Source: an uncultured Saprospiraceae bacterium
GTDB lineage: Bacteria; Bacteroidota; Bacteroidia; Chitinophagales; Saprospiraceae
NCBI GenBank assembly: GCA_937973995.1
Contig: CALJIQ010000313.1
Span: 1-35,934, forward strand
Direction of reading: 5' to 3'
DNA: 35,934 nt
Of the stretch, positions 4,867-35,934 are shown piece by piece. How positions within the stretch are numbered: the first letter of the stretch is position 1; every line of letters starts with the position of its first letter. Position numbers and translations under genes: made by a program. The notes beneath the pieces are model-generated. The model was not told the origin of the DNA. It saw only the letters and a list, made by a program, of their open reading frames with translations, and made no database searches.

Positions 4867-4946
4867 TATTAAAACTTGCTGCTAAGCTACCATCAATTCT
4901 GTAAAGATACCAATACCATTCGTAGAAAAAGCGGCTGCTATTTGAC

Positions 4947-5097
4947 ATTGCTTCATTGTTCTATTGTCTCATTGTTCCATTGGCTCATTGTTCTATTGTC
5001 TCATTGTTCCATTGTTCCATTGTTCCATTGTTCTATTGTTCTATTGTCTCATTGTTCTATTGTCTCATTGTTCTATTGTCTCATTGCTTCATTGTTG
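4947..5097 (+). repeat. Octamer tandem array 1 (18 full 8-bp units plus a partial)
   Basis: Direct parse at 8-bp register from 4947: ATTGCTTC, ATTGTTCT, ATTGTCTC, ATTGTTCC, ATTGGCTC, ATTGTTCT ... ATTGTCTC, ATTGCTTC, ATTGTTG. Confidence 0.97.
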
Positions 5098-5116
5098 ACA
5101 AAACAATTGGTGTACT

Positions 5117-5172
5117 CGTCGGATGGCTGCGTCGTCCGATGAGCCTTCCCATCCGACGGCAGCCATCGGACG
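5117..5172. repeat. Two interleaved inverted repeats (A-B-A'-B')
   Basis: A=CGTCGGATGG (5117-5126) with A'=CCATCCGACG (5149-5158); B=CGTCCGATG (5133-5141) with B'=CATCGGACG (5164-5172). Both are perfect complements. Confidence 0.9.
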
Positions 5173-5237
5173 GGATTTCGTTATTGCTGTCCAGATACTA
5201 AAGTAATTGAACAAAACAAATGAAATAGTTCCAATTA

Positions 5238-5269
5238 TCAATCAGCTCAGCTTAAAGTGAGCAGATTGA
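5238..5269. repeat. Hairpin, 12-position stem with one A-A mismatch
   Basis: TCAATC-A-GCTCA / gcttaaag / TGAGC-A-GATTGA. Confidence 0.85.
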
Positions 5270-5286
5270 ACAAAGGCGTCTGATCT

Positions 5287-5304
5287 GATCACTCCAAAGT
5301 GATC
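5287..5304. repeat. Perfect 7-bp hairpin GATCACT-ccaa-AGTGATC
   Basis: Direct reading. Lies at the distal edge of the conserved array-flanking module. Confidence 0.9.
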
Positions 5305-5346
5305 TGACCAGTTCTCAATTGTTTCAATAATTCTGTCTAACTACTA
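5296..5346 (-). repeat. Conserved array-flanking module, copy 1
   Basis: Reverse complement TAGTAGTTAGACAGAATTATTGAAACAATTGAGAACTGGTCAGATCACTTT aligns without gaps to 35884-35934. Including the preceding ATTGT, 48 of 56 positions are identical by manual alignment. Confidence 0.93.
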
Positions 5347-5535
5347 ACAATAGAACAATGAGACAATAGAACAATGAGACAATGGAACAATGAGACAATG
5401 GAACAATGAGACAATAGAACAATGGAACAATGGAACAATGAGACAATGGAACAATGGAACAATGGAACAATGGAACAATGAGACAATAGAACAATGAGAC
5501 AATAGAACAATGAGACAATAGAACAATAGAACAGA
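5347..5535 (-). repeat. Octamer tandem array 2, opposite orientation to array 1
   Basis: Parse: acaat, then agaacaat/gagacaat/ggaacaat units (22 full), then agaacaga. Reverse complement is ATTGTTCT/ATTGTCTC/ATTGTTCC. Confidence 0.97.
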
Positions 5536-5656
5536 TAAAAATGATGGAGGCTATGGAGTTGCTGGATCGGGAAGTGGTGGTGGAAAGAGAGTGGGTGTTT
5601 TACAGGTGTCTCCACAACGTCTCTTTTTGGAAAATGAAGGAACGGAATTTTCCGAA

Positions 5657-32053: not shown

Positions 32054-32130
32054 AGGAGTCAGGCGTCAGGCGTCAGGCGTCAGGGAACACAGATACCAGT
32101 CTGACCCCTGACCCCTGATTCCTGACCCCT
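32054..32130. repeat. Miniature inverted heptamer array
   Basis: AGGAGTC-AGGCGTC-AGGCGTC-AGGCGTC (32054-32081), a ~20-nt spacer, then GACCCCT-GACCCCT-GATTCCT-GACCCCT (32103-32130). Arms are near-complementary. Confidence 0.93.
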
Positions 32131-32142
32131 TAAAAGGACGAT

Positions 32143-33453
32143 ATGAAAAACCTACCTCTTCATTGGAAGATATTAATCGGAATGGCATTAGGGGTCGTAT
32201 TTGGTTTTATAGCTGTTAATACGGGCTTAGAGGATTTTACTAGAAAATGGATAATGCCTTGGGGAAAGATATTTTTGAATTTATTAAAAATGATTGCAGT
32301 CCCTTTGATTGTAGCTTCTTTGATAAAAGGTATTAGTGACTTAAAAGATATTTCCAAATTATCTCAGATTGGTGGACGGACGATTGGTATCTATATCTTA
32401 ACTACCCTCACCGCTGTCGTCATTGGTCTATTACTGGTTAATATTATTCAACCAGGTAACGGGATTGAGGAAACCACGCGAGCGAATTTATTAGAAGGCT
32501 ATGCGGCAGATGCCACCGCAAAAATAAATACGGCTAATGAGACAGAAACTTTTAAGGATGCTCCTTTGAAGTTTATTGTGGACATGGTACCTGATAATAT
32601 TGTGGGCGCAGCTACCAGCAATAAGAACATGCTGCAAGTCATTTTCTTTGCTATCTTTTTTGGAATTGCGATGATATTAGTACCAGAGGAAAAAGTGCGT
32701 TCTGTTAAATCCTTTTTTGATGGCTTAAATGATATTGTGTTGAAGATGATTGATTTGGTGATCTTGATGGCCCCTTATGGAGTGTTTGCTTTATTGGCAG
32801 GACTGGTCGTTAATTCGCCGAGTGCGGATATTTTTGTTGCTTTAGGAAAATATGCACTGACACTGATAATTGGACTAGCCATTATGATTATCTTGTATGC
32901 AGTTGTAGTTTCTATGTTTACGGGAAAATCACCAGGTTACTTTTTCAAAGGGATTATGCCTGCGCAGTTATTGGCATTCTCCACTAGCTCAAGTGCCGCC
33001 ACACTTCCCGTAACAATGGAACGAGTGGAGGAACACTTAGGAGTAGAAAAGGAAGTAGTGAGTTTTGTCTTACCCATAGGCGCTACGGTTAATATGGATG
33101 GCACCAGCGTATATCAGGCAGTTGCTGCCGTCTTTATTGCTCAGGTTTTTGGTTTTGATTTGTCCATGATGGATCAATTGACTATTGTGTTTACGGCTAC
33201 CTTAGCTTCTATTGGTTCAGCTGCTGTACCAAGTGCAGGTATTATTATGTTGGTCATTGTATTGGAATCTATTGGTGTCCCTGCTTCTGGTATTGCCCTT
33301 ATTTTTGCAGTTGATCGTCCTTTGGATATGTGTAGAACAGTAGTGAACGTTACTGGGGATGCAGCGGTGGCGATGTTGGTCGCTAAAAGTGTTGGCAAAT
33401 TAGGTGAGCCTAAACCTAAGAATTGGGACGATCATTATGAAAAAGTGGCTTGA
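32143..33453 (+). CDS. Dicarboxylate/amino acid:cation (Na+/H+) symporter, SDF/DAACS family
   Basis: 436 aa; hydrophobic; hallmarks LLAFSTSSSAATLPVTMERVEEHLGV, VLPIGATVNMDGTSVYQAVAAVFIAQ, DRPLDMCRTVVNVTGDAAVAMLVAK. AAAGGA RBS-like sequence before the ATG. Confidence 0.95.
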   Translation: MKNLPLHWKILIGMALGVVFGFIAVNTGLEDFTRKWIMPWGKIFLNLLKMIAVPLIVASLIKGISDLKDISKLSQIGGRTIGIYILTTLTAVVIGLLLVNIIQPGNGIEETTRANLLEGYAADATAKINTANETETFKDAPLKFIVDMVPDNIVGAATSNKNMLQVIFFAIFFGIAMILVPEEKVRSVKSFFDGLNDIVLKMIDLVILMAPYGVFALLAGLVVNSPSADIFVALGKYALTLIIGLAIMIILYAVVVSMFTGKSPGYFFKGIMPAQLLAFSTSSSAATLPVTMERVEEHLGVEKEVVSFVLPIGATVNMDGTSVYQAVAAVFIAQVFGFDLSMMDQLTIVFTATLASIGSAAVPSAGIIMLVIVLESIGVPASGIALIFAVDRPLDMCRTVVNVTGDAAVAMLVAKSVGKLGEPKPKNWDDHYEKVA

Positions 33454-33477: not shown

Positions 33478-35682
33478 TTGACGATGACCCGACTGTTTTT
33501 ATTATTCTTTTTGCTGGGTAACAACTTCCTAGCTGCACAAGAATTTGTAAATAGCTTTCCCACATTGTCTATAGAAAAAACAGAGGAAGTACTTTCTATA
33601 GATGGCAATGTAAAAGAAGCTGTCTGGTCTTCTGCAAAAAAAGCAACCAACTTCTGGTTACAAGCACCCATAGATGGTGAGCAAGCAAACCAGCAAACAG
33701 AAGTGCAGATGGCATACGATAATAAATTTATCTACATCGCTGCTACTTGTTGGGATGATAATAATTATGTAATCCAAACGCTCAAAAGAGATAACTTTGG
33801 AGAGAGCGATGCATTTGCTATTTTAATTGATCCGGTAAAAGAACAAACAAATGGTATTTTGTTCGCTGTCAATGCATTAGGAGCGCAAACAGAAGCCTTA
33901 TTGACGGAAGGTGGCGTTGATGATAGTTGGGATAATAAGTGGTTGGTTGGCGTAAAAAATTATGCAGATCGTTGGACGGTGGAGATGGCCATTCCTTATA
34001 AAACACTTCGCTTTAAGACAGGGATAGAGGAGTGGGGGATTAACTTTGTTCGGATAGAACCAGGAAGTAATGAAACGCATTCTTGGTCGCCTATACCTCG
34101 CCAATTTAATATTTTTGATTTAGGATATTTGGGTACGCTTTCTTGGGATCGACCACCTGTAAAAACGGGTAAAAATATTTCATTAATTCCTTATGCCACT
34201 GCTTCCTTAAATAGAGATTATCAACGTTTATCTACTACTATTCCTACTCTAAAACAAGAAGATTTTGAAGTGGGTGGAGATGCTAAAATTGCTTTATCTT
34301 CCACGTTGAATTTAGACCTCACCATCAATCCAGATTTTTCTCAAGTAGAAGTAGATCGACAAGTAACCAACCTTACTCGCTTCAATATTTTCTTCCCGGA
34401 ACGCCGTCAATTTTTTATTGAAAATGCCGATGTCTTTAATGACTTTGGACAGTTTGCGGAACGTCCCTTTTACTCTCGCCGTATTGGTTTGAATGAGTCG
34501 GGTAATACCATTCCTATTAAATATGGTTTGCGATTGAGTGGCAACGTCAATTCCAAATTGCGATTGGGATTGATGAATATGCACAGCAAATCCAACCTTA
34601 CTAATTATGGTCAAAACTATAGCGCACTTACCTTTCAACACCGACTTTGGAAACGTTCTTCTATAAAAGGAATTTTTTTAAATCGACAAGGTTTTTCTGA
34701 TGGAGAAACTTTGGAAGGAGATTATGGACGCAATGTTGGAGGGGAATTTAATTATAGTACGTCTGATGGAAAATGGAGAAGTCAGGTTGGATATATCCAT
34801 TCCTTGAAAGAAAATTTTGATAATAAAAATCGACACCTCTACGGTCGCTTTGATTATGACGGTGTCAATTTTAGAACTTTTTTTACGGTGCAACATATGG
34901 GAGAAAATTACTTCTCCGATATGGGATTTAATAGACGCTTGTTCAATTTTGATCCAACCACAGGTGAGACAATTCGAGTGGGGTTTACGCAGTTTGGCAA
35001 TATGCTGAACTACTACATCTATCCAAAAGATAGTAAAAATATTAATTTTCATTGGTCTGGTTTAGAGAACTTTGTGTACTTAAATCCTAATGGTAGCATT
35101 AATGAATGGTACACCCGATTACGTCATTTTTTCTTTTTTAAAAATACCAGCCAACTGCGTTTTCGGTTGAATAATAATTATGTGGATCTACTTTTTCCGT
35201 TTGCGTTAACTGCTACTCCTTTGCCAGTTAAGTCCTACAATATGACGGAGTTCAATGTTCAATTCAATACCGATTTACGAAAGCGATTGAACACGGAATG
35301 GTTTATCGTTTTTGGAGAATTTTATGAAGGAACAAAATTGACTTATCGAGGAAGTGTTTCCTATCGTGTACAACCGTGGGGGAATTTTTCATTAGGTATT
35401 GAACAGAATAATATCCGAATGCCGGAGCCCTACGGTAATCTAGATTTGACCTTAGCAACGGGTAGTATTGAAATTAATTTTGCGACTAATCTCTTCTTTA
35501 CCACCTTCCTACAATATAACACCCAAGCTGATAATTTTAATATCAATGCTCGTTTCCAATGGCGCTTTGCACCGATGTCTGATTTGTTTTTGGTCTATAC
35601 GGATAACTATTTGGTGGATGGTAAATTTGGACCTAAGACGAGGAGTTTGGTGTTGAAGGCTAATTATTGGTTGACGCTTTGA
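33478..35682 (+). CDS. CBM9-like / DUF5916 family protein (probable outer-membrane beta-barrel protein)
   Basis: 734 aa; signal peptide; LSIDGNVKEAVWSSAKKATNFWLQAPIDGEQANQQTEVQMAYDNKFIYIAATCWDD...; INPDFSQVEVDRQVTNLTRFNIFFPERRQFFIENADVF. Track start is TTG (33478); ATG at 33484 is an alternative. Confidence 0.88.
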   Translation: MTMTRLFLLFFLLGNNFLAAQEFVNSFPTLSIEKTEEVLSIDGNVKEAVWSSAKKATNFWLQAPIDGEQANQQTEVQMAYDNKFIYIAATCWDDNNYVIQTLKRDNFGESDAFAILIDPVKEQTNGILFAVNALGAQTEALLTEGGVDDSWDNKWLVGVKNYADRWTVEMAIPYKTLRFKTGIEEWGINFVRIEPGSNETHSWSPIPRQFNIFDLGYLGTLSWDRPPVKTGKNISLIPYATASLNRDYQRLSTTIPTLKQEDFEVGGDAKIALSSTLNLDLTINPDFSQVEVDRQVTNLTRFNIFFPERRQFFIENADVFNDFGQFAERPFYSRRIGLNESGNTIPIKYGLRLSGNVNSKLRLGLMNMHSKSNLTNYGQNYSALTFQHRLWKRSSIKGIFLNRQGFSDGETLEGDYGRNVGGEFNYSTSDGKWRSQVGYIHSLKENFDNKNRHLYGRFDYDGVNFRTFFTVQHMGENYFSDMGFNRRLFNFDPTTGETIRVGFTQFGNMLNYYIYPKDSKNINFHWSGLENFVYLNPNGSINEWYTRLRHFFFFKNTSQLRFRLNNNYVDLLFPFALTATPLPVKSYNMTEFNVQFNTDLRKRLNTEWFIVFGEFYEGTKLTYRGSVSYRVQPWGNFSLGIEQNNIRMPEPYGNLDLTLATGSIEINFATNLFFTTFLQYNTQADNFNINARFQWRFAPMSDLFLVYTDNYLVDGKFGPKTRSLVLKANYWLTL

Positions 35683-35686
35683 GGTG

Positions 35687-35886
35687 ATTGTTCTATTGTC
35701 TCATTGTTCCATTGTTCCATTGTACCATTGTACCATTGTACCATTGTACCATTGTTCCATTGTCTCATTGTCTCATTGTCTCATTGTACCATTGTCTCAT
35801 TGTCTCATTGTCTCATTGTTCCATTGTCTCATTGTTCCATTGTCTCATTGTTCCATTGTCTCATTGTTCCATTGTCTCATTGTCAG
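35687..35886 (+). repeat. Octamer tandem array 3 (24 full units plus a degenerate end)
   Basis: 8-bp register from 35687: ATTGTTCT, ATTGTCTC, ATTGTTCC x2, ATTGTACC x4, ATTGTTCC, ATTGTCTC x3, ATTGTACC, ATTGTCTC x3, then alternating ATTGTTCC/ATTGTCTC, ending ATTGTCAG. Confidence 0.97.
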
Positions 35887-35934
35887 AAATTATACAGAAT
35901 TATTGAAACAGTTGAGAACCGATCAGATCACCTT
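35884..35934 (+). repeat. Conserved array-flanking module, copy 2 (truncated by window end)
   Basis: CAGAAATTATACAGAATTATTGAAACAGTTGAGAACCGATCAGATCACCTT, ungapped match to the reverse complement of 5296-5346. Confidence 0.93.

Follow-up and report, generated by a model that had tools for sequence, protein, structure and literature searches.

Heptamer arrays have been described between the genes of Xanthomonas (GGGAATC) and of Nostoc (GGGGA(C/T)T) by Rehm et al. (PMC4692102). In Xanthomonas, two close convergent arrays form inverted repeats in 70-75 cases per genome, and the arrays lie mostly 0-50 bp from an ORF, downstream of it on the coding strand and upstream of it on the non-coding strand. 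The study deals with a single heptamer family for each genome, prone to form G-quadruplexes, and gives few inverted pairs for Nostoc (PMC4692102). TAACTGA heptamer arrays were reported by MacGregor (PMC4679880) in Beggiatoaceae, Cyanobacteria and Bacteroidetes; their distribution across phyla is patchy, horizontal spread was proposed without a mechanism, and in Beggiatoaceae most of them lie no more than a few nt from a start codon. Possible hairpins have been discussed for some repeats of the hyp operon of Nostoc (PMC2408588), and BrickBuilt, a MITE of Porphyromonas gingivalis (Bacteroidota), is associated with a tandem array and is always intergenic (PMC4596501).

The DNA analysed here (the window) is one whole contig of 35,934 bp from a 5.4-Mb draft genome (562 contigs), which is 94.6% complete and in which some contigs end in repeats of the kind described below. 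Genes of the window carry type IX secretion sorting domains, a pointer to Bacteroidota, and one reading frame of 7329 residues occupies 9649-31638 on the minus strand. The sequence-only reading of the window had reported two ATTGTnnn arrays running into a common flank. Read directly in the sequence, both arrays are real (5346-5533, minus strand, and 35687-35884, plus strand) and both have this flank; exact three-unit ATTGTnnn matches in the window number 55, versus 0.00 in shuffles. As proposed in that reading, the flank is dispersed: searched genome-wide, its 35-nt pattern is exact at both window sites and has at most 3 mismatches at 8 more, and the reversed pattern, as control, gave 0 matches in the genome.

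We found that a third array of the window, at 4946-5096, is the opposite arm of the first structure, i.e. the inverted partner of 5346-5533. This left arm is an octamer array of ATTGTYYY on the plus strand, identified by TRF and repeat search, with its GT-rich strand reading inward, and the right arm, identified by repeat searches, spans 5346-5535 on the minus strand. Between the arms are two abutting MITEs, both on the minus strand. One is a family B-like copy at 5095-5199 (boundaries approximate), read in the sequence from its terminal inverted repeat (TIR) and CGTCCGATGG palindromes. The other is a full-length, 144-bp family A copy at 5202-5345, which is 97% identical to the consensus and has an imperfect TIR (AGTAGTTAGACAGAAT...) and two inner hairpins. 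The whole region 4940-5540 folds as a single long hairpin of -312 kcal/mol versus a mean of -142 kcal/mol for 20 shuffles (z -27.6). The other octamer array (35687-35884), seen in the sequence and by repeat search, starts 4 nt past the stop codon of a DUF5916 gene (33478-35682) and is followed by the left end of a second family A MITE (35885-35934, plus strand; sequence and flank pattern), which the contig end at 35934 cuts, so this copy cannot be followed further. An Rfam search of the window at the gathering threshold gave no match, and a known RNA family was rejected on this basis.

Inward palindromes of short words are widespread between the genes of this genome. In an unbiased sample of contigs (C1-C87; 808 kb, 536 called genes), the left and right edges of 103 of 375 intergenic regions (IGRs) form inverted repeats with a score of at least 12, versus an expectation of 7.3 from pairing edges across IGRs. 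A hairpin (stem score at least 12) is present in 71 of the 146 non-divergent IGRs of 50-160 bp and in 0 after shuffling; among divergent IGRs of this length, a small class, 0 of 12 have one. At least ten words recur in the arms (ATTGTYYY, TGGYRTTR, GGAGTCA, GAGTGAA, GAGAATK, GAATKTT, ATTRATT, GTCATTR, TGATGGYT and GTTTATYT). For these ten, inward pairs outnumber outward pairs 64 to 2, and strict ATTGT palindromes genome-wide comprise 31 inward and 0 outward. These are paired inward arrays of tandem intergenic words, whose 7 or 8 nt fall in the 5-9 nt range of the Xanthomonas type. Period 7 is dominant in the palindromic edges (match 0.41 versus 0.30 shuffled), and period 8 is second and weaker.

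In compact IGRs, the arms start a median of 7-9 nt from the genes, where distances to start codons are approximate because gene starts were taken from a simple codon-usage script. Most of the word-family arrays listed start near a gene boundary, stop or start alike, and their GT-rich strand reads from there towards the interior of the IGR. ATTGTYYY contains no G-runs, and G-skew of the arms was discarded as a mark of the palindromes since other IGR edges are skewed likewise. In the unbiased sample, the loops of compact palindromes have a weak excess of AAGC and GCATA; beyond this excess the loops differ between loci, and a shared loop motif was rejected. That about half of the compact 3'-side gaps are word-built hairpins is a larger finding than the two composite copies of the window.

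The window has one more palindrome, of the GGAGTCA family, at 32054-32131 (plus strand; -47.7 kcal/mol, z -6.8), 11 nt upstream of the gene at 32143, which encodes a sodium:dicarboxylate symporter. It is in a divergent IGR and is an exception to the placement rule. Its left arm is GGAGTCA followed by (GGCGTCA)3, and its right arm, read inward, consists of GGGGTCA and GGAATCA; thus the two arms have amplified different variants, GGCGTCA on the left and GGGGTCA on the right. The order of unit variants is mirrored between arms beyond unit-shuffled arms (P<0.05) in 9 of 48 testable palindromes and is no better in 39, in a test that has little power for short arms; the window arms at 4946-5096 and 5346-5533 gave P=0.14. 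The idea that one arm is a fold-back copy of its partner was rejected, as mirrored order did not exceed that of unit-shuffled arms in most cases. Since variant order is mostly unmirrored and different variants are amplified in each arm, the sequences favour local slippage within each arm once a palindrome exists. A word palindrome would most likely be seeded first, with its arms lengthening separately afterwards.

The words change between relatives. In a sister species of the genus (G065), orthologous IGRs, whose flanks are mostly 72-87% identical, also have palindromes, and at several of the few loci compared these are built of other words: GAATKTT corresponds to a GAGGAAT-type word, GAGTGAA to GATGAATG and GAGAATT to ATTGATT. 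At two other orthologous IGRs the word is common to both genomes. None of these sites has a comparable palindrome in G158, a more distant congener, again for few loci. Of the compact IGRs examined in each, small numbers in both cases, 7 of 10 have a hairpin in G065 and 0 of 12 in G158. The octamer is nearly private to this genome among the genomes searched: the 31 strict ATTGT palindromes found here compare with 1 in one other of 397 genomes of the phylum.

In comparison, GGAGTCA palindromes reach far beyond the genus. A scan of GTDB genomes for the exact palindrome AGGAGTCAGGAGTCAG-N(3-33)-CTGACTCCTGACTCCT, made with one word in one orientation and run without a scrambled control, found 32 stretches in about ten phyla, where by a rough estimate far fewer than one would be expected by chance. 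Carriers include the isolates Nostoc sp. KVJ20, Lacipirellula limnantheis and Desulfotruncus arcticus. In a Hydrogenedentes MAG (MJ-time_bin-1056; L251-L274) we found ten GGAGTCA palindromes, several of which have a common loop, AATGAACGGAGGCGGCAGCGCCATT, in both orientations, and some of which have outer (GGATGAA)n arms. Hence, copies have been dispersed in the Hydrogenedentes genome. An identical palindrome in about ten phyla makes horizontal spread versus convergence directly testable.

The flank that the two window arrays share is the left end of the family A MITE, and a 144-nt consensus built around it has about 40 good matches in this genome, which differ in their inner hairpins. A second core, B (CGTCCGATGG...), has the same TIR and is present at many loci. 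Both families end in terminal inverted repeats, and 17 of the 29 complete A and B copies are bordered by an exact 2-bp target duplication, versus 3.7 expected from mismatched flanks; duplications of 3 to 5 bp were found at none of the 29. The window copy of family A is bordered by the duplicate AA (5200-5201 and 5346-5347, plus strand). The TIR, at up to 2 mismatches, is present in none of the 149 other genomes of a 150-genome family sample, a congener included. A search with the TIR in the genome itself gave only short elements at the copies inspected, and no autonomous partner was seen. A third MITE-like element, with TGAGTCCACTCTAAAAAGTC ends and a possible 4-bp duplication (GCAA), is inside an octamer arm at L094:8260-8430, and similar ends are present at L111 and L217. 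A dispersed CTCCCTTTAAAAGGGAG element at L129:10832-10948 has many partial matches in G065.

The association between octamers and MITEs is real: octamers are within 120 bp of 19 of the 29 MITEs, whereas among the other IGRs of 200 bp or more, 8 of 191 have them. The left flanks of the MITEs mostly carry ATTG (11 versus 2) and the right flanks mostly CAAT (14 versus 3). Hence, the MITE is usually between two inward arms. For the 17 copies with a duplication, we joined the two flanks after removing 0 to 8 bases and found that the 8-nt register comes back at a removal of exactly 2 bases and at no other (mean 5.1 of 8 matches, 9 of 17 joints with at least 6), in comparison with means of 2.1 to 3.2 matches and at most one such joint for all other lengths. 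Removal of the MITE and one 2-bp duplicate thus restores the octamer register; therefore, the MITE jumped into existing arrays.

The octamer array is not part of the MITE, and the MITE does not contain an array. A composite mobile element, in which the array is copied along with the MITE, would account for the strong co-occurrence and for the array directly adjoining the TIR in both window copies; however, the 2-bp duplication separates the array from the TIR, 10 of the 29 MITEs lack octamers, octamer palindromes without a MITE also occur, and arrays are present on either or both sides of the MITE. We consider this composite very unlikely and reject it on the restored register. The sequence-only reading had suggested that array and flank are a mobilised or template-copied unit and not independent slippage. 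That more than such slippage is at work stands, as does the dispersed, MITE-like flank with its strong tie to octamer arrays; the single unit does not. The side of the flank on which the array lies varies: in the 6 complete A copies, ATTG octamers are on both sides of 3, on the left only of 1 and absent from 2. A second rival is that microsatellites slipped independently at each site and formed palindromes by chance. It agrees with arm length and variant order that vary and with each arm being able to amplify its own variant. As sole cause it is contradicted, however, and very unlikely, since the same word is on both arms, inward pairing is 64 to 2, edges pair far above mismatched edges, a few words recur genome-wide, and GGAGTCA palindromes are present in about ten phyla. 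Slippage alone leaves the recurrence of the same few words at unlinked sites and in other phyla unexplained.

Movement of REP-type hairpins by a REP-associated tyrosine transposase (RAYT) could draw on four Y1 transposase matches in the genome; of two Y1 proteins tested, one is above the RAYT model cut-off and the other above the IS200 cut-off. However, the RAYT gene tested (L320) has several copies of a REP of its own (TCGAAGTTTGCAACTTCGA) around it and not the words, and each locus has its own palindrome loop. Little can be learned from L321 and L322, where the contig stops at the gene or close by. To our knowledge, tandem words of 7-8 nt are not a REP feature. From the one RAYT inspected, which sits among its own REPs, we rejected this origin as highly improbable, and the REP analogy drawn earlier extends to hairpin shape only. 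A templated enzyme, such as a reverse transcriptase or a telomerase-like enzyme, that writes word arrays onto DNA 3' ends during break repair would give inward arrays on both sides with unrelated loops, consistent with the inward polarity, the locus-specific loops and the different words in the same IGR of sister species. However, the search of the 94.6%-complete genome found no RVT_1 protein, where the same search finds RVT_1 in control genomes, and writing ten or more words would call for many templates. With no RVT_1 match, we rejected this writing as extremely improbable. As for function, the palindromes might act mainly as bidirectional transcription terminators, since almost all of them lie in IGRs that border a gene 3' end and they are predicted to form strong RNA hairpins. 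We regard this as unlikely, since in the sequences read most 3' arms lack a T-run and many extend to the start codon of the following, co-oriented gene. A clear T-run is mostly absent from the palindromes read; hence, canonical intrinsic termination is unsupported for most.

Given the near absence of palindromes from divergent gaps and their strong folding, they most likely act at the RNA level, where transcripts have their 3' ends. A palindrome would be retained for two reasons: its transcript would form a strong hairpin at the upstream cistron's 3' end, and such sites would hold little promoter information.

We favour as probable an explanation in two layers: word palindromes are seeded between genes, grow by slippage and are retained as transcript hairpins, and the MITE is nested in them later. 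In the first layer, palindromes of tandem, degenerate, inward words of 7 or 8 nt fill IGRs that border a gene 3' end on one side or both, and they begin close to the stop or start, within a few nt. In the second, a MITE family (A and B cores, one TIR, 2-bp duplication) has jumped into octamer arrays, usually between the arms, which gives the look of an array plus a fixed flank. For annotation, the lesson is that array-plus-flank composites can be nested insertions.

More speculatively, and with the odds against it, a word-specific process common to or passed between distant phyla may seed intergenic inward palindromes built from particular 7-8-nt words and swap words at one site within a genus, so that hairpins are kept as structures and their sequence is rewritten. 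If hairpins do keep their shape and change their words between sister species, intergenic hairpins can turn over far faster than genes. There would then also be a repeat-writing or repeat-spreading process, accounted for by no enzyme identified here.

Arrays of six of the words, sought as literal strings, were not found in the collection of papers searched. TAACTGA arrays resemble the present ones as intergenic heptamers with a cross-phylum distribution; unlike the present palindromes, they are described as directly repeated and as lying ahead of starts in mostly a single orientation, with one inverted case given for the main genome (PMC4679880). The cyanobacterial STRR and LTRR are also tandem short repeats in intergenic DNA, and LTRR units are longer. 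In BrickBuilt, a 23-nt array is inside the MITE, whereas here it lies outside the MITE and predates it. REP and REPIN sequences (PMC3733652, PMC3116915) are likewise high-copy intergenic hairpins; unlike them, the arms here are tandem 7-8-nt words, and the RAYT inspected lies among REPs of another kind.

The closest likeness is to Xanthomonas. Both have tandem short words in intergenic DNA with an inward placement rule, both have convergent arrays that form inverted repeats (here 31 versus 0 for ATTGT and 64 to 2 for the ten words), and in both an array is near its 5' neighbouring ORF whatever the orientation of that ORF. By these three features, and judged from sequence, the present arrays belong with the Xanthomonas type, where paired inward arrays with such placement are already known. 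Unlike in Xanthomonas as published, a minimum of ten words, 7 and 8 nt long, build the arrays, which occur in about half of the compact non-divergent IGRs, words are replaced between sister species, and MITEs are nested in the arrays. The number of words, their density, their turnover and the MITE nesting set the present case apart within a known kind.
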